Shown: piece by piece, positions 11,686-23,378 of the stretch
How the letters are laid out: each line of letters opens with the position of its first letter
Numbering within the stretch: the first letter of the stretch is position 1
DNA from: Alphaproteobacteria bacterium
Lineage (GTDB): Bacteria; Pseudomonadota; Alphaproteobacteria; CAAGCB01; CAG-977
Assembly: GCA_017616015.1 (NCBI GenBank)
Contig: JAFZYY010000024.1
Location: 124,001 to 188,000, forward strand
Length of the DNA stretch: 64,000 bases
Reading direction: 5' to 3'
Program-made: the position numbers and the translations under genes
Notes under the pieces: model-generated
What the model was told of the DNA's origin: nothing
Seen by the model: only the letters and a program-made list of their open reading frames with translations
The model's database searches: none

Positions 11686-12342
11686 ATGTCGAATGAGTCC
11701 GAATTTCCGAATTTGCATATTCTAAAACATCCGCTGATTCAACATAAGTTGACCTTAATGCGCGATATTACAACGTCGACTCGCACATTCAGAGAATTGC
11801 TTAAAGAAATCGCGTTGCTGATGGGATATGAAATCACCAGAGATCTGCCGTTGACGTATGAGGAAATCGAAACGCCGCTGTGTACGATAAAAGCGCCGGT
11901 TATTGCGGGGAAAAAATTAGCGGTTGTTCCGATTCTGCGTGCGGGAATCGGCATGGCGGACGGGCTGTTGCAGTTGGTGCCTTCCGCGCGCGTCGGACAT
12001 ATCGGCTTATACCGCGATCCGAAGACTCTGAAGCCTGTGGAATATTTGGTTAAATTGCCACCTGTGGACGATCGGCTGTTTATTTTGGTCGATCCTATGC
12101 TTGCGACGGGAAATTCCGCGGCCGCGGCTGTTGATACATTGCTCAAGAACGGCGTTCCGGAAAACAAGATTGTTTTCCTGGCATTGGTTGCCGCTCCGGA
12201 AGGCGCCCGAGTCTTTGCAAATCTGCACCCGAACGTGCCGGTTTATGTCGCTTCTTTGGACGAGAAATTAAACGAGCACGGTTATATTTTGCCCGGATTG
12301 GGCGATGCGGGCGATCGGTTGTTCGGAACAAAAACCAGATAA
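11686..12342 (+). CDS. upp: Uracil phosphoribosyltransferase
   Basis: The 218-residue product has the type I PRTase PRPP-binding loop [17 protein letters not shown] and the Upp-specific uracil-binding [11 protein letters not shown] segment at the C-terminus. It makes UMP from uracil and PRPP, recovering the base released by thymidine/deoxyuridine phosphorolysis. It is divergent from the salvage operon, which fits a joint role. AAGGG lies 9 bases upstream of the ATG. Confidence 0.96.
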
Positions 12343-12363
12343 ATTAACCAGCGGAGCTTTTTC

Positions 12364-15300
12364 GTGAAAAAATTTATTCTTATTTTCGGCGTTTTAATTG
12401 TGGTGGTGGCAGCCGGTGTTTATTTCGCTCTGCCGACCAATATCAATTGGGAAAAATATGTTCAGAGCACATCTGAAGAAATCAGAGAAAGGACGGGGCT
12501 GTACTTCAGCTATAAAGACAAGCCCGTGTTTTCGATGAAGCCTGCTCCCGTGATGACGTTAAATCAGGTTCGTCTGGGAAATGTCAGAGGGGCGACATAT
12601 CCTGAAATGATGACGGCGATGCGTGCTGAAATTTTGTTTGACACGAAATCGCTGTTTCTCAGAAAAATCAAAATTAAAAAAATCACGCTGACTTCTCCGC
12701 AGTTTTATTTTGAAACGTTGGATAACGGCAAATGGAACTGGCAGACGGCTTTTCTTGAAAGAGCAGGGGTTAATTCGACGTTCGGCTTTGACAGTCTGTT
12801 TTTGACCGAAGGAAAAGCGGAAATTAAGCATGACAAGTACACCCCCGTTCAAACGTGGAATAAAATCAATGCGGAAATGTTTGCCGACAGTATGCAGGGG
12901 CCGTTCTCTTTTGAAGGAAATTTCGGCGCTTTGTCTTCCAATTTCGGCTTTTCTTTGAAAATTGAAAAGTATTCCGGCAACGAGTCTCCGGATTTTTCGC
13001 TGCGTTTGATTAACACGCCGGCAGAAGCTTCTTTCGTTCTTAACGGGAGATACGGTGTGACGGATACGGATCGGGGCGTGCTGACGGGCAGCATGACTTT
13101 TGATATTCGCAAGCCGCAGCAATTTTTCTCTTTGATGTATCCGCAGGAAAGGCTTCCTTCCGACATTTTTCAGCCGGTGATCGGAAATTTGAAAATTAAC
13201 AAATCTGTTCAGGCCAGAACAACGGAATTGACGGACATTCTGTTCAAATACGGAACGTCTTCGGCTACGGGAAAACTGACGATTCGTTCTTTGTCTCCGC
13301 AGGAAGCTTCCGTTCTTCAGGCTGAAAAAGATGCGCATGGAGACGACGGAGAGGAAGAAATTGTTTTAAGGGATCCCAGTAAGCCTTCCGAAACGGTTCG
13401 TTTGGAAGACGCTCCGGTCAATCAAACGAAAATAGCACAGAATTTATTGCCGAAAGTCGTGAACGGTTCTTTTGTCTTTTCCACCTTTGATGCGGATCCG
13501 TTTTTTAATAGTCTGTCGGCGATTACGTCGTTCATCGCAAAACAGGGATATTTCGGAAACACTTACGATTCTTACGCGTTAGACGTGATGTTTGACACGA
13601 TGAATTTAAAAAAAGACGCGATTCATCAGTTCCGCACACAAATCCGTTCCGATCCGGAAGGTCTGGCGTTTGATGATTTTTCCGCCACTCTTCCGAGCAA
13701 TGCATATGTTTCGGGCAAAGCGACGTTATCTCTTTCCAAAAATCCGCTCTTATCCGGGAAAATGGCCATAGACGCTCCTAATTTTAAATCTATTTTAGGG
13801 TGGTTGGGCGTCCCTCTTTCGGAAGAAATTCCTCAGAATTTGTTGCTTCAGATGAAAGCGGATGCGAATTTTAAATTAGCGTCAAACGGCATTCTTTTGC
13901 AGAAAGTCAAAGGCGTTTTGGATAAAATTGATTTTTCGGGCGATTTGGCCTTGCGTCCGGGAACACGGAAAGCTATCAGCCTTTCGGCGAATTTTTCGGA
14001 TTTGGATTTTGCTCAGTATTTCCCGATTCGTAGCAAGGACTTTATTCAGAAACGTGAAGAATTTGCGCGTAAAAGCATAAAAGAAAAACTGAACAGTTTA
14101 TTTCAGGGTCTGGGATTCCTCAGCGAATTTGATTTGAATTGCAAGCTGACGGCCGGTGCTTTGTCCTGGGGCGATATTAAATCCGAAAATATTAAGTCCG
14201 ATTTTTCGGTTGTCCGCGGCCAGATGAAAATCAATGAAATGTCGGCGGACAAAGTGTTCGCTTCATCGGTTTCCATTAAAGGGAAAATCGAAGGTTTCGG
14301 TGCCGAACCCAAATTTACCGGAGTAAACGTCAATATTAATGCGGGACAACTGTCCTCTTTGGTTCAAGCTTTGGGGATTTCTCTGCCGCAGGGGATCGCG
14401 CCGCAGGATAAAATGCGCCTGACGTCATGGCTTTCCGGAACGACGCAGATTTTGGATTTTGATACGAATATTGAATTCGAAAACTCGCGTTTCAGCGGGC
14501 AGGGCGGCTATAAAGAAACCGCTTCGAATGTTGATTGGGATATGGATATTAGTATTTCCCATGATAATTTCAGAAACTTTATTCGTCTTTTTACCGACGC
14601 CTATCGTCCCGCGCTGGCCAATCCCGGTGCTTTAACCCTGAAAGGCCATGTTTTTAAAAACAAAGACCAATTCCAGATGTTGAATATGAAAGGTCAAATC
14701 GGCGATAATGATTTCGTCGGTTTTATCAAGATGCGCAGACAAAATGACAAGCCGGTCGTGGAAGCTGAAATTATCGGCGAGGACTTGGCGGTGTTGGGAA
14801 TGATTCCGAACTTCAACATCACGGATTCGCTGTCGGTCAATCCGCAAAAAATAATCCCCGATAATATATGGAAAAAAGACGGTGTGCTGACGCGGTTGGC
14901 TGACGGTATCTCTTTCTCTAAAAAGCCGCTTGATTTTTCGTTTTTGGGAAAATATGAAGCTTCGGTCTCTTTAAAAACGAATGCACTCTTTTTGAATTCA
15001 CTGGTTTTAAAAGAGTTTGACGGCATTATTAAATTGTCTGACGGAAAAATCGGGCTTGATATCCGCCGCGCCTTGTGGAACAAAGCTAACATCGGCGGGA
15101 TTTTTAATTTAACGTTTGCAGATTATACGGCGGCCGTAAAAGGGGCTCTTCGCCTTTCAAATATTAACGCTCCGGCGAAAATGTTTGTTTCCGATACGCT
15201 GAATATAAGCGCCGTTGAAACGATGGTTTTAAATCTGAATTTTGTCGGCAACGGCAGAACCGCGGATTCGCTGATGTCGTCTTTGACGGGAAAAGGAACG

Positions 15301-16689: not shown

Positions 16690-17220
16690 ATGAATAAAAT
16701 TAAGAGCGTTCTTTTGCTTTGTTTTCTGGCCGTTTTACCTGCTGGTTGCGTTTCTAATGCGGCGGAACAAAAAAGCGAGGTCGATAACGTTGCCGAACCC
16801 GTGCCGGCCGAAAAGAAAAAAGAAGTCGTATCCTGGGATTTTAAACGAGCCGTGCAAACCGCCGTCAGAAATATGCTGCAATCCGGCGCTTTGGATAATC
16901 CGACGGGCGAGCGGTATATCGTTTCCGTTTCTTATATTGTCGATACGACAAAAATGGGTTTCAGTACAACGGAAATCAAACAAAAACTGAGTGCCGATCT
17001 GGCTGCCGGACGCAAGGTGCGCGTTGTTTCAACAACATCTAAAAACGTAACGCCGCAACTTATTATCGCGGGCAGAATCACGCAAAGAACGGCTCATGTC
17101 CGCGGCGGAAAGAAAAGACAGGAATATTATCTGAATCTGGTTTTAACCGAAGCAAAAAGCGGTATAAAACTGTGGGAAAACGCAACGCCGATTGTTAAAA
17201 AGAAAGAAACTCAGAAATAG
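16690..17220 (+). CDS. LpoB-like lipoprotein (penicillin-binding protein activator family)
   Basis: The 176-residue product begins with a lipoprotein signal peptide ending in VLPAGC (Cys20; proline at -3 is atypical). The rest matches the LpoB/DUF3897 pattern: an N-terminal acidic linker, an amphipathic FKRAVQTAVRNML helix, then the beta sheet segments around AAGRKVRVVSTTS, LIIAGRITQRTA and YYLNLVLTEAKSGIKLWE. LpoB anchors in the outer membrane and stimulates the bifunctional peptidoglycan synthase PBP1b. Activity of this homologue on a PBP is inferred. Its 3' end overlaps the convergent prepilin gene by 10 bases. Confidence 0.8.
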   Translation: MNKIKSVLLLCFLAVLPAGCVSNAAEQKSEVDNVAEPVPAEKKKEVVSWDFKRAVQTAVRNMLQSGALDNPTGERYIVSVSYIVDTTKMGFSTTEIKQKLSADLAAGRKVRVVSTTSKNVTPQLIIAGRITQRTAHVRGGKKRQEYYLNLVLTEAKSGIKLWENATPIVKKKETQK

Positions 17221-17771
17221 TATTCCCATTTCAAATCAATAGAATCCGAAGCTGTGCAGACGTCCGTTATGGATTCCATTCCGGGCGGTAAAAGGCGTCC
17301 TTCGCCACCCTCTCCCGGCCAAAAGAAACTTTCTTCTCCGACCTGAATTTTTGCCAACCCCGAAGACGGATCGCTTCCCCAGTCCGCGGCCATCAGTTCA
17401 ATGCAATTTCTGGAAGTGACGCCAAGCAAATTGTATGTAAATGTAACTTCATCATGCATAGAGGAAAGTTCTATTTTTATTTTATTCCCTGAAACACTGA
17501 TGGCGTATCCGTCTTCGTCAACTTCGGAAAAAATGCCTAAAGCGACAAGTTTTGCGCCGGCAATGTCGTCAGCGTTGGCAGGACGAACATTGGCAAAAAG
17601 CTGACGTGTTTTCAGAATGGTATCTTTGGTTTCGCGGTAAACCCGTTCCATCGCGATTTTCCCATGAATTTTGCTGATACCGAGCATAACTCCTAAGGAT
17701 ATTACGCCGATGACACCTAAAACGGCTAAAACTTCTATCAGAGAGCTTCCTTTTTCATTTATGTTTTTCAT
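17211..17771 (-). CDS. Type IV prepilin-like protein
   Basis: The 186-residue product carries a class III prepilin leader: an 8-residue basic leader ending in Gly, then SSLIEVLAVLGVIGVISLG, with Glu at position +5 and a hydrophobic helix, the substrate pattern of PilD-type peptidases. The mature N-terminal residue would be Ser instead of Phe. The remaining soluble domain holds two cysteines (NCIELMAADW and DVCTASDS) and resembles PilS/PilV-type pilins with a C-terminal disulfide region. No prepilin peptidase, assembly ATPase or secretin is in the window, so its machinery must be elsewhere. It follows the small gene 17786-18025 by 14 bases. Confidence 0.8.
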   Translation of the reverse strand: MKNINEKGSSLIEVLAVLGVIGVISLGVMLGISKIHGKIAMERVYRETKDTILKTRQLFANVRPANADDIAGAKLVALGIFSEVDEDGYAISVSGNKIKIELSSMHDEVTFTYNLLGVTSRNCIELMAADWGSDPSSGLAKIQVGEESFFWPGEGGEGRLLPPGMESITDVCTASDSIDLKWEYYF

Positions 17772-18025: not shown

Positions 18026-18146
18026 TTTTTTTAAGTTCCTTCGCAGGGGGATAGTAAAGATTGCTTAACATAATTAGTATACAAAAAAGAAGAGAGCAAG
18101 TCGATACTATCCAAAGTCATACTGGGAAAAAGAAAGGAATTTTTCT

Positions 18147-18770
18147 GTGCCGGAAAATGATTTTATCTTTTCAAAATCAATAGTTACGCGTTTCAGTCAC
18201 GATTTGGCCGGCGTTGTCAGCGCCGTGTCCAACAGTTTATCGCTGCTTGACGAATTGGGCGGCGCCGATCAGGAAACATTGAAATTGGCCGCGGACAATG
18301 CGGATATTTTGATGGGGCGTCTGCGCTTTTTTCGGGCGGCTTTCGGAAACGAAGGGCCGCTGACCGATATAGCCGTAACGCAAAGGATTTTTGAAGATTA
18401 TTTGAAAACATTGGAAAATAAAGCGATTCATTACGCCTGTGTCTGGCAAACGGATCAGGAACTGCCGATTTTTATTTTCCGGTTGATTTTGTTAAGCGGA
18501 TTGATTGCGGCGGAATGTTTGCCGCGCGGCGGCCAAATTACGATTCAGGCTCAGGCGGGCAACCGTCAAATCCGGGTGGAAGCGTCGGGAAAAAACGCAG
18601 CGCCGGATCCGCAAATGCAAACGGTTCTGGACGGCCGCATCGAAGATGTTTCTTCAGCCAAATTAATGCCCGCCGTATTTTTGCAAAAATGTTTGGCCGA
18701 ACAGAAATGGCAAATTTCTCTTTCGTCGCTTGAGGAAAAAGCGATTATTTTGCTGAACGAAAAAAGGTAA
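18147..18770 (+). CDS. chpT: Histidine phosphotransferase ChpT
   Basis: The 207-residue product matches the ChpT family: an N-terminal helical hairpin with phospho-accepting His18 in RFSHDLAGVVSAVSN, followed by a degenerate HATPase-like domain that does not bind ATP. In alphaproteobacteria ChpT relays phosphate from CckA to CtrA and CpdR, controlling cell cycle or motility genes. The GTG start follows AAAGGAA. Only 18 bases separate it from a CheA-like gene, suggesting a joint unit. No cckA or ctrA is in the window, and I found no clear TTAA-N7-TTAA CtrA box in the upstream gap. Confidence 0.87.
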   Translation: MPENDFIFSKSIVTRFSHDLAGVVSAVSNSLSLLDELGGADQETLKLAADNADILMGRLRFFRAAFGNEGPLTDIAVTQRIFEDYLKTLENKAIHYACVWQTDQELPIFIFRLILLSGLIAAECLPRGGQITIQAQAGNRQIRVEASGKNAAPDPQMQTVLDGRIEDVSSAKLMPAVFLQKCLAEQKWQISLSSLEEKAIILLNEKR

Positions 18771-18788
18771 TAAAAAGAGCACCGAGCC

Positions 18789-20861
18789 ATGATTGATTTC
18801 GTTGAAGACTTTTTGAAGGAAGCGACTTTGCAACTTTCAGAGATGAAAGGTCTTCAGAATATTGCGGAACAGGAAACTCTTCGGGAAGAAACCAGGGACG
18901 ATTTGTACGCTTTTTTTGATTTTGTGCGTTCAGTCGCTCCTTTCGCAGGATTTATGCGCTCTTATCGTTTGGCTGACGCGGCCGTGCGGGAAATACGCGC
19001 GTATCGGGATCAGAAACAAATATCGGATCCTTTTCCTTCCGTATTGAAAAAGTTTTTGCGCATTAAAGATATATTGGCATCAGCCGATCCTTTAAAAAAG
19101 GAAGCTTCCGAATCAGACGATGATTTGCTACCGGACGTTTCGCAGAACTTTGATGCGGACGAGTTGCCCGGTTTACTTCGGGAATTGGAAAAAATAAAAG
19201 CCGAAAGCCTGGAAGAGCAAAAAAAATATGACGCTTTGGAAAAAGAGTTTCACGGCGTATCTCAGTCTTTGAGCAGAGAAAAAGAAATAAAAGGGCAGGT
19301 ATTAAAAGAAAAAAGGGAGCTGGAAAAACAGCATTTTGAATTTAATTCCCGTTTGATTCGTTTGCAGAAAAGCTTGGGCGCCGAAGCTGAAAAAGTCAGA
19401 CGCATGGAAAAAAAGCTGGAGCAACAAAAAGATTACGGAATTTTCGTGCGCAACGAACTGCGTGCGGCGGGTTGGCCGCCGGATACGGAGAAAATCCAAC
19501 GCGAATTGGCAATCTTGGCGCGTCAAAACGAAACGAAAACCGCAACAAACAGTCTGATGGCGCTTAAAGAATTAATCGGTCAAATCAGGGCTCGCTCTTT
19601 TACGCGGATTCCGCGCTTTTTCCGGAATATGGTTCAAAAAACGTCCCGAAAATATCAAAAACCGTGTGAAATCAATATTGATTGTGATGTTTCCGGCGGT
19701 GTGGATAAAGAAACATTGGCTGTTCTGAAACAAATCCTGACGCAGCTGACAGATAATGTTTTCCGTTATGCCGTTCCTCAGGAAACGGAAAAATTGCGTC
19801 TTAGTTTTACGGCGCGCGAAAACAATATGTTTTTGCATTGTTCTTTTTCGGATAACGGCGCTTTTTTTGATTTTGACAAACTGTATCAAACCGTTCAGTC
19901 CGAAGGATTTATTCAGGAAAAAGCCGCTGTTCAGAAAACCGAATTGCTGGCGTATTTATTTCATAATGTCGTTAAAATTGAAGGAAAAGCCCGCGGATTG
20001 ACAGACGTGGCGCAGTTGCTGGAAAAAGCGGGCGGGCAGGTATCCGTCGATTTTAATAAGGGGTTACAGATTGATTTTTCAATTCCCAAACATTTTTTGT
20101 TCGACCGGGTTCTTCTTTTCCGGTTATCGGATCAAATATTCGCTCTTCCTTTGAATGCCGTGGCGGAAACTATTTTCTTTGATGATGAAAGTAATCCTGA
20201 AAATTCCTCTTTTTTCTACAGGAAAGGCACTTCTCTGCCGGTATTAAAGCTTGATGAATCGGAACAAAACGGGTTCGGAATAATTGTTCAGGCAGGAGTT
20301 TTCAGTTTCTTGTTGCCTGTTCAGCAAATTTTAGACGCGGAGCATATGGTTTCTTTTTCGGAAGAGGAAGAAAATCAAAAATGTTCCTATTTGATTCCCT
20401 GCACTGTTTTGGAAAGCGGACGGGAGCCACTTTGGCTGAATATTGCCGAACTGTTGAAACAAGTCGTTCTGCCGTTGCCCAGAAAGGTGGTTTCCCTTCC
20501 CGAAAACGCTGGAAGCAACGCGGGCGGAGATGAAGTCGTTTCTTATCTGGTTTTCAGATCGGATCCTTCGTTCTTCGGGGCGGTCAGGGTGAACGCTGTT
20601 TTGAAAGTGGAAGATTTTTCGTTGTCTCCGAACAATTCCGCCCGTAAAAAATATCTTGAAACGGAAGGACGACACCTGCCGTTGAAGGATTCCTGTTCGC
20701 ATGAAGGATTCCCGTATGCGCAGGCGATTTTGATTTTTGAAAAATTTGCGCTGGCTATTCAGGAAGTCGTTGATATTGTCGATGTTCCCGCCGGTGACGA
20801 TAATACCGATTCCATTGTCTATCGCGGGCGTAAAGTCAAAGTATTTCCAACGACTCTTTAA
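18789..20861 (+). CDS. CheA-like pseudokinase with two CheW-like domains
   Basis: The 690-residue product has the CheA domain order but degraded catalytic motifs. Residues 1-100 resemble the Hpt (P1) domain, yet the phospho-acceptor position is Arg47 in FDFVRSVAPFAGF, where CheA has His in an HTLKG context. Residues about 130-215 form a coiled coil. Residues about 255-430 align with dimerisation plus HATPase regions, but the G1 box is DNGAFFD and the GRGVGMD box has become GKARGLTD, so ATP binding is unlikely. Two CheW/P5-like domains follow (about 437-565 and 590-690). It probably acts as a scaffold or partner of ChpT. Its stop overlaps the convergent 20858-22804 gene by 4 bases. Confidence 0.8.
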   Translation: MIDFVEDFLKEATLQLSEMKGLQNIAEQETLREETRDDLYAFFDFVRSVAPFAGFMRSYRLADAAVREIRAYRDQKQISDPFPSVLKKFLRIKDILASADPLKKEASESDDDLLPDVSQNFDADELPGLLRELEKIKAESLEEQKKYDALEKEFHGVSQSLSREKEIKGQVLKEKRELEKQHFEFNSRLIRLQKSLGAEAEKVRRMEKKLEQQKDYGIFVRNELRAAGWPPDTEKIQRELAILARQNETKTATNSLMALKELIGQIRARSFTRIPRFFRNMVQKTSRKYQKPCEINIDCDVSGGVDKETLAVLKQILTQLTDNVFRYAVPQETEKLRLSFTARENNMFLHCSFSDNGAFFDFDKLYQTVQSEGFIQEKAAVQKTELLAYLFHNVVKIEGKARGLTDVAQLLEKAGGQVSVDFNKGLQIDFSIPKHFLFDRVLLFRLSDQIFALPLNAVAETIFFDDESNPENSSFFYRKGTSLPVLKLDESEQNGFGIIVQAGVFSFLLPVQQILDAEHMVSFSEEEENQKCSYLIPCTVLESGREPLWLNIAELLKQVVLPLPRKVVSLPENAGSNAGGDEVVSYLVFRSDPSFFGAVRVNAVLKVEDFSLSPNNSARKKYLETEGRHLPLKDSCSHEGFPYAQAILIFEKFALAIQEVVDIVDVPAGDDNTDSIVYRGRKVKVFPTTL

Positions 20862-22832: not shown

Positions 22833-23279
22833 TTAAGCCAACAGTTCGGAAACCTTCAGCGTAACCGTGACAGCGGAAACATCGTGGCTGTCAAAAATAA
22901 ACGCAAAGTTTTCTTTAATGGTCGTGCCAGCTTTATCGGAAGAAACGCCCATCAAAGCGGCGACCGTGTCGATCGTTTCACCGTGACCGCGAGCGGCGTC
23001 AACGGCGAACTGTTCCAAATTCTTTTCCAGGAAAGTCAGAACCTTGCCCGTGCCGCCCGTGATACGGCCGTTGTGGTCACAGCCGGAGGTTCCGGTCGTG
23101 ATACCGAATGTCTGGTTGCCGAAGAATCCGTTCGTCGTTACGGCCAACGTCTGGAACAGAAAACCGGACTGGCCTTTGAAAATGATGGAACCCAAACCGC
23201 AACCCGTGCTGTCATGAGCAAAAGCGGACGTGGCGGAAAAAGCTACTGCGAAAGCAGCTAAAGCTAAAAATTTTTTCAT
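22833..23279 (-). CDS. DUF3015-family periplasmic protein
   Basis: The ATG at 23279 is chosen over an in-frame GTG 42 bases upstream because AAAGGGG lies just before it and the product then begins with a clean signal peptide (MKKFLALAAFAVAFSATSAFA). The mature 127 residues contain GCGLGS, the NGFFGNQTFGITTGTSGC segment with paired cysteines, and a DTVAALMG region typical of DUF3015. The family is periplasmic or secreted and of unknown function. It may be cotranscribed with the DUF4105 gene. Confidence 0.8.
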   Translation of the reverse strand: MKKFLALAAFAVAFSATSAFAHDSTGCGLGSIIFKGQSGFLFQTLAVTTNGFFGNQTFGITTGTSGCDHNGRITGGTGKVLTFLEKNLEQFAVDAARGHGETIDTVAALMGVSSDKAGTTIKENFAFIFDSHDVSAVTVTLKVSELLA

Positions 23280-23378
23280 CAGTAAATCCCCTTTAGGATA
23301 ATTTAAAACACTTGGTGACAATAAAATAAAAATATCCTAGAATCAATTCAAATTTCATTATTTTGAGGTCAAAAGTTT

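Follow-up and report, generated by a model that had tools for sequence, protein, structure and literature searches.

In Caulobacter, DivL, a catalytically dead kinase, is able to control the CckA-ChpT-CtrA relay (PMC4211667), and Osp in Rhodobacter is an example of additional CckA regulators that are confined to particular lineages (PMC9430884). For chemosensory kinases, a survey described the kinase domain as the most conserved part of CheA, found in every CheA homolog, and also reported a degenerate HATPase region in CheA3 of Rhodobacter sphaeroides as well as Hpt domains devoid of the conserved His in ChpA of Pseudomonas aeruginosa (PMC10782961). According to the same survey, CheAs with two CheW domains belong almost entirely to class F5, whose members, such as the CheA proteins of Azospirillum brasilense, Rhodospirillum centenum, and Caulobacter, often carry a receiver as well. 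The open-licence papers searched contained no report on a chpT-cheA cluster or on a degenerate CheA in the group studied here.

Here we analyzed a 64,000-nucleotide stretch of alphaproteobacterial DNA (the window) in which chpT is followed by a gene encoding a degenerate CheA, referred to as pseudo-CheA. Since this protein has lost its catalytic residues and yet has been preserved together with one receptor-like protein, it is probably a non-enzymatic link in a signaling chain.

The chpT Locus Is Conserved

The assembly containing the window comprises 2.09 Mb in 34 contigs and is 98% complete. Its relatives in the named genome collection are metagenome bins of rumen and gut Alphaproteobacteria; the 12 genomes sampled from the order represent one family and three genera, and their gene content was judged from family searches. 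The original prediction had placed chpT beside a gene for a 690-residue protein, and both open reading frames were confirmed (Table 1), on the same strand and separated by 18 bp, the first one encoding ChpT with its phospho-acceptor intact. An ortholog of the pseudo-CheA gene was found directly after chpT in every one of the 12 genomes of the order, including G005, where a contig end cuts the gene, so that the locus is split over two contigs, chpT and the first 200 residues remaining together. As the genes flanking the pair are also conserved in most of these genomes, the locus is stable.

A divergent pseudopilin-like gene (window 17211-17771, minus strand) carries an N-methylation motif, and its synteny with chpT is conserved across the family. 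In G009, a gene for a small secreted protein, homologous to window 22833-23321, is present in tandem copies (L042:11454-11900 and 12075-12521) that represent either a duplication or an assembly artefact. PHROGs gave no match.

Table 1. Coordinates of the features of the chpT locus in the window.
Feature	Position	Strand	Description	Basis
Conserved element	18064..18082	+	CTTAACATAATTAGTATAC (also given as TTAACATAATTAGTATAC); between divergent pseudopilin-like gene and chpT	
chpT	18147..18770	+	GTG start, 207 aa, phospho-acceptor His18 in RFSHDLAG	PF10090, E 3e-16
Pseudo-CheA gene	18789..20861	+	690 aa; predicted catalytically degenerate ortholog of ChpT-linked F5-type hybrid CheA	
Hpt (P1)-like four-helix domain	18789..19100	+	aa 1-104, without acceptor His	Profile alignment to F5 CheA P1, E 2.8e-15
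His site of P1	18918-18920		Codon of Asp44	
Lys site of P1	18927-18929		Codon of Arg47	
Long coiled-coil helix	19173..19466	+	aa 129-226	AlphaFold secondary structure, alignment
P3 remnant and P4 HATPase-like domain	19545..20093	+	aa 253-435	Fold match, hhalign to F5 CheA
Degenerate G1 box DNGAFFD	19851..19871	+	aa 355-361; Asp355 kept, second Gly lost	F5: DDGRGL
Degenerate G2/ATP lid GKARGLTD	19983..20006	+	aa 399-406; about 7 lid residues deleted	F5: GRGVGMDV
First CheW-like (P5) domain	20100..20462	+	aa 438-558	PF01584, E 6e-6, above cut-off
Second CheW-like domain	20526..20849	+	aa 580-687; F5 receiver that would come next absent	hhalign

The phospho-acceptor His of ChpT is conserved in 61 of 61 aligned ChpTs. 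Around the His helix, ChpT of the window family shows the changes C17S, P23V/A, G30S, and E32S/A at sites that hardly vary in other Alphaproteobacteria, and it also carries a private four-residue insert, LEN[KR], at positions 89-92.

Pseudo-CheA Retains the Architecture of a CheA

The CheA architecture that had been proposed for the neighbor of ChpT, consisting of an Hpt-like bundle, a coiled coil, a HATPase-like fold, and two CheW-like domains, was supported by Pfam, profile, and fold matches. By sequence, the solved structures nearest to the protein are CheA chains (E 2e-6), and the predicted core fold (P3-P4-P5) matches CheA in Foldseek (6s1k_A, E 5e-19), with a CheA P4 fold match over residues 266-435 (Z 17.2); the Pfam match to HATPase_c was sub-threshold. 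Two CheW domains, the trait of the F5 class, are present, the first detected by Pfam and the second by profile alignment. Comparison with F5 CheA by hhalign gave 99.9% over 430 residues (258-687), which backs both domains, and AlphaFold predicted strands at 583-685 within the second one.

Because the AlphaFold model of the full protein had a low overall pTM (0.38), only single domains were read from it. The P1-like region, the N-terminal 100 residues, was modeled as a four-helix bundle (pLDDT 85) whose best fold match is CheA P1 (1i5n, Z 12.0), although designed bundles score nearly as high (Z 10 to 11). Foldseek alone found no match for this domain below E 0.001, so the sequence profile match is the main basis for identifying it as an Hpt. 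Orthologs vary in length from 675 to over 1000 residues. The coiled coil is much longer in most of them (up to about 300 residues, with totals of 855-947 residues) and shortened in the window. In the G005 ortholog (L039:39-3203; over 1054 residues), near-identical repeats (ELNEKIAGLTDLLDQK-type) expand the coiled coil, and in the alignment the G009 ortholog appears to lack the Hpt-like domain.

The Acceptor Histidine, the ATP Lid, and the Receiver Are Lost

Over its first 80 residues, the protein can be aligned with intact F5 CheAs without a single gap, and the residue numbers coincide; in the window, Asp44 stands in place of their His44. Among the orthologs, column 44 is occupied by D, C, H, E, S, G, or K, with His solely in G006. 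The original prediction had equated the lost histidine with Arg47, which proved to be wrong: Arg47, invariant in the family, occupies the conserved Lys47 site of F5 CheAs. A by-eye Hpt register that placed the His site at Ala50 was also rejected, since the gap-free profile alignment, in which the numbering is identical, leads to residue 44.

The degenerate G1 and G2 boxes read as originally described. Compared with F5 CheAs, DxGxG in G1 is changed to DNGAF and GRGVG in the lid to GKARG, the lid itself being about seven residues shorter. The claim that the ATP motifs are lost therefore stands for the second Gly of G1, the GRGVG pattern, and the lid residues, but not for the N-box Asn (N323) and the G1 Asp (D355), both of which are invariant in 12 of 12 orthologs and make some nucleotide binding possible. 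The receiver domain has disappeared from all 12 orthologs, which end after the second CheW domain; this loss from the ancestral protein had escaped the original prediction. There is good support for the conclusion that pseudo-CheA cannot act as a normal kinase, as no conserved His, intact lid, or receiver occurs in the 12 orthologs, and a search for a functional His or intact boxes elsewhere in the protein found none.

Pseudo-CheA is under purifying selection in every domain. All 12 genomes keep its reading frame open, with identities of 29-59%, and the comparison between the window and its nearest relative gave a pN of 0.26 and a pS of 0.69, with a similar pattern in each domain, versus 0.15 and 0.64 for chpT; these ratios are rough, as synonymous sites are near saturation. 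The most conserved parts with respect to the nearest ortholog are the CheW domains, with 67% (first) and 66% (second) identity.

Pseudo-CheA Is Related to a ChpT-Linked F5 CheA

Across 289 genomes of the class, the genes for ChpT and those giving the best matches to the window-family profile repeatedly lay side by side. A CheA of about 900 residues was found in the same locus, nearly always directly downstream, at 37 of the 49 ChpT loci from outside the order, which are not a random sample. A Pfam scan of one such ChpT-linked CheA revealed Hpt, H-kinase_dim, HATPase_c, two CheW stretches, and a receiver, i.e., a hybrid CheA. The N, G1, and G2 boxes are kept in all 47 CheAs of this type inspected elsewhere, and the acceptor His is aligned in all of them (46 by a stricter motif search). 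At L106, L116, and L131 the cluster goes on with cheW-, cheY-, and cheB-like genes, not each in every locus, and two control genomes have CheB and CheR in this cluster. At L113, L114, L120, and L131, from other Alphaproteobacteria, the receiver of the ChpT-linked-type CheA is degenerate, with the kinase part intact or nearly so.

The window-family HMM gave 93-160 bits for ChpT-linked F5 CheAs versus 47-75 bits for other CheAs. A core-domain tree placed the window family beside F5 with a support of 74/99, but the branch is very long (8.2 changes per column) and an alternative was not rejected (p-AU 0.60); since so long a branch gives no firm placement, the case for orthology is built on position, architecture, and profile match. 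On these grounds, the pseudo-CheA gene is the predicted ortholog of the F5-type hybrid CheA gene that normally adjoins chpT in Alphaproteobacteria. Both proteins share the domain order P1, P3, P4, and two CheW domains, the ungapped P1 alignment over 80 residues, an EP...D-x-DL linker, and the position next to chpT. Unlike F5 CheA, pseudo-CheA has lost the acceptor His, the second Gly of G1, the ATP lid, and the receiver, has gained a long coiled coil, and is encoded in a genome without a CheW, CheR, or CheB partner.

A Single Receptor-Like Protein Accompanies Pseudo-CheA

Family searches of the 12 genomes of the order detected CheR and CheB in none of them, whereas two control genomes were positive; nor did they detect, again with positive controls, any CheW-domain protein other than pseudo-CheA. 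A single MCP-like receptor, 706-735 residues long and containing HAMP, is encoded in 11 of the 12 genomes, the exception being a genome that is 88% complete; HAMP and MCPsignal matches were over the cut-off in 8 of the 11. The receptor gene (L147:4960-7113, contig C25 in the window's genome) shows no linkage to the chpT locus. Residues 554-573, at the tip, are its most conserved 20 residues, with 79% mean pairwise identity versus 41% overall, and identity falls to 15-25% along parts of the arms. The hairpin tip of receptors binds CheA P5 and CheW in known systems, and receptor-receptor contacts are also made there. The idea that the CheW-like domains tether ChpT to a receptor gained circumstantial support on the receptor side, from a lone MCP-like receptor conserved along with the only CheW-domain protein of these genomes and from the conserved tip; a physical tie between ChpT and pseudo-CheA, or a scaffold for the whole relay, may exist as well. 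The receptor also has a conserved motif after HAMP (YFGQGVGVDTESQLCQM) and a conserved C-terminus (LPxYEE). In the window's genome, a gene for a TerB-domain protein (PF05099) and one for a small secreted-looking protein flank the receptor gene, as they do in most relatives.

Flagellins are encoded in 11 of the 12 genomes. In the window's genome, the gene for CckA (PAS, HisKA, HATPase, receiver) adjoins flhB and fliR, and CtrA is present along with ChpT; the names of CtrA and of the flagellar genes are those we take them to bear, as recognized from sequence. A flagellar gene cluster of this genome encodes a CheY-like protein of 128 residues (L163:5015-5401, contig C3) that keeps the Asp and the Lys and has Cys at the usual Thr/Ser site.

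Possible Roles of Pseudo-CheA

We lean towards the view that pseudo-CheA is a pseudokinase that scaffolds or allosterically couples the MCP-like receptor to ChpT and thereby tunes the CckA-ChpT-CtrA relay. The two CheW-like domains would replace the missing CheW and hold the protein on the hairpin tip of the receptor, the coiled coil and the P1/P4 remnants would present or allosterically gate ChpT, and this gating would tune the relay, often in control of flagella, as DivL does in Caulobacter. Some observations count against a scaffold: the receptor gene lies apart from the chpT locus, the tip of the receptor could be conserved for receptor-receptor contacts instead, an ancestral linkage to chpT does not have to imply contact, the core-domain tree gives the family no firm place by sequence alone, the Hpt-like domain appears to be missing in one ortholog (G009), and nucleotide binding through N323 and D355 is possible. 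Pseudo-CheA resembles DivL, whose action on the relay is experimental (PMC4211667), in being a histidine kinase without catalysis; DivL, however, is a histidine kinase of another type that binds DivK~P and acts through CckA, whereas pseudo-CheA is a CheA with CheW domains and is linked to ChpT. A CheA family that lacks acceptor and lid and is nevertheless under selection would give DivL a chemosensory counterpart. Like P. aeruginosa ChpA, pseudo-CheA has a CheA-type Hpt domain without the acceptor His, but ChpA is an active kinase with other Hpt domains that remain functional.

In its wider form, which we put forward tentatively and with some doubt, the pathway would be rewired so that ChpT receives its input directly, without CheA kinase activity, from a complex of a lone chemoreceptor and a dead CheA that contains its own CheW domains. 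If so, environmental sensing would control the CckA-ChpT-CtrA relay or the flagellar CheY, and the widespread chpT-cheA linkage would hint at an older coupling between chemosensing and the CtrA relay. The locus draws attention to this linkage and raises the testable question of whether chemoreceptors act on the CtrA relay through ChpT.

Other explanations start from the same parts. Pseudo-CheA might be a structural protein of a receptor cluster or of the pole that works independently of ChpT, the linkage being an ancestral leftover. CheW-like domains and a coiled coil, present in every ortholog, and the widespread, ancestral chpT-cheA linkage would suit such a role; we nonetheless regard it as rather unlikely, for the other che genes have left the cluster while the pseudo-CheA gene still lies directly beside chpT in 12 of 12 genomes, and ChpT itself has changed in the same lineage. 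A reduced chemotaxis system, in which receptor and dead CheA form a complex, ChpT takes the place of the P1 His, and phosphate passes to the CheY-like regulator of the flagellar cluster, would account for the loss of the P1 His with the ChpT His retained, for the presence of that regulator, and for flagellins in nearly all genomes. It appears unlikely too: no receptor-controlled kinase was identified, the absence of CheR and CheB means that there is no adaptation by methylation, and transfer from ChpT to a CheY-like protein with Cys at the Thr/Ser site is hypothetical.

Residual catalysis has far less in its favor. In R. sphaeroides CheA3/CheA4, kinase and acceptor roles are divided between two proteins and activity survives; pseudo-CheA is like these split kinases in that some catalytic parts are missing, but its genome has no CheA-type partner kinase. 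That pseudo-CheA is an atypical yet active nucleotide-binding kinase working in trans, as the invariant N323 and D355 and the predicted P4 fold might suggest, is very improbable given the shortened lid, the lost GRGVG pattern and second G1 Gly, and the non-conserved acceptor His. Least plausible of all, and already largely refuted, is a decaying relic without function. The very long branch, the lost catalytic motifs, and the variable ortholog lengths would fit decay, whereas a frame kept open in all 12 genomes despite such divergence, and a pN far below pS in every domain at a ratio near that of chpT and its neighbors (with synonymous sites near saturation), do not.

A Conserved Element Lies Upstream of chpT

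No canonical CtrA box (TTAA-N6..8-TTAA) was found in the regions upstream of chpT in the 12 genomes. The conserved element listed in Table 1, whose family form is TTTAACTTAATTAGTATAC, is visible 5' of chpT in most orthologous loci. It gave one match in the window at one mismatch, versus 0.02 expected, and was the sole match in the whole genome when up to two mismatches were allowed. This candidate element is probably a promoter or a regulator site and may be a dedicated one.
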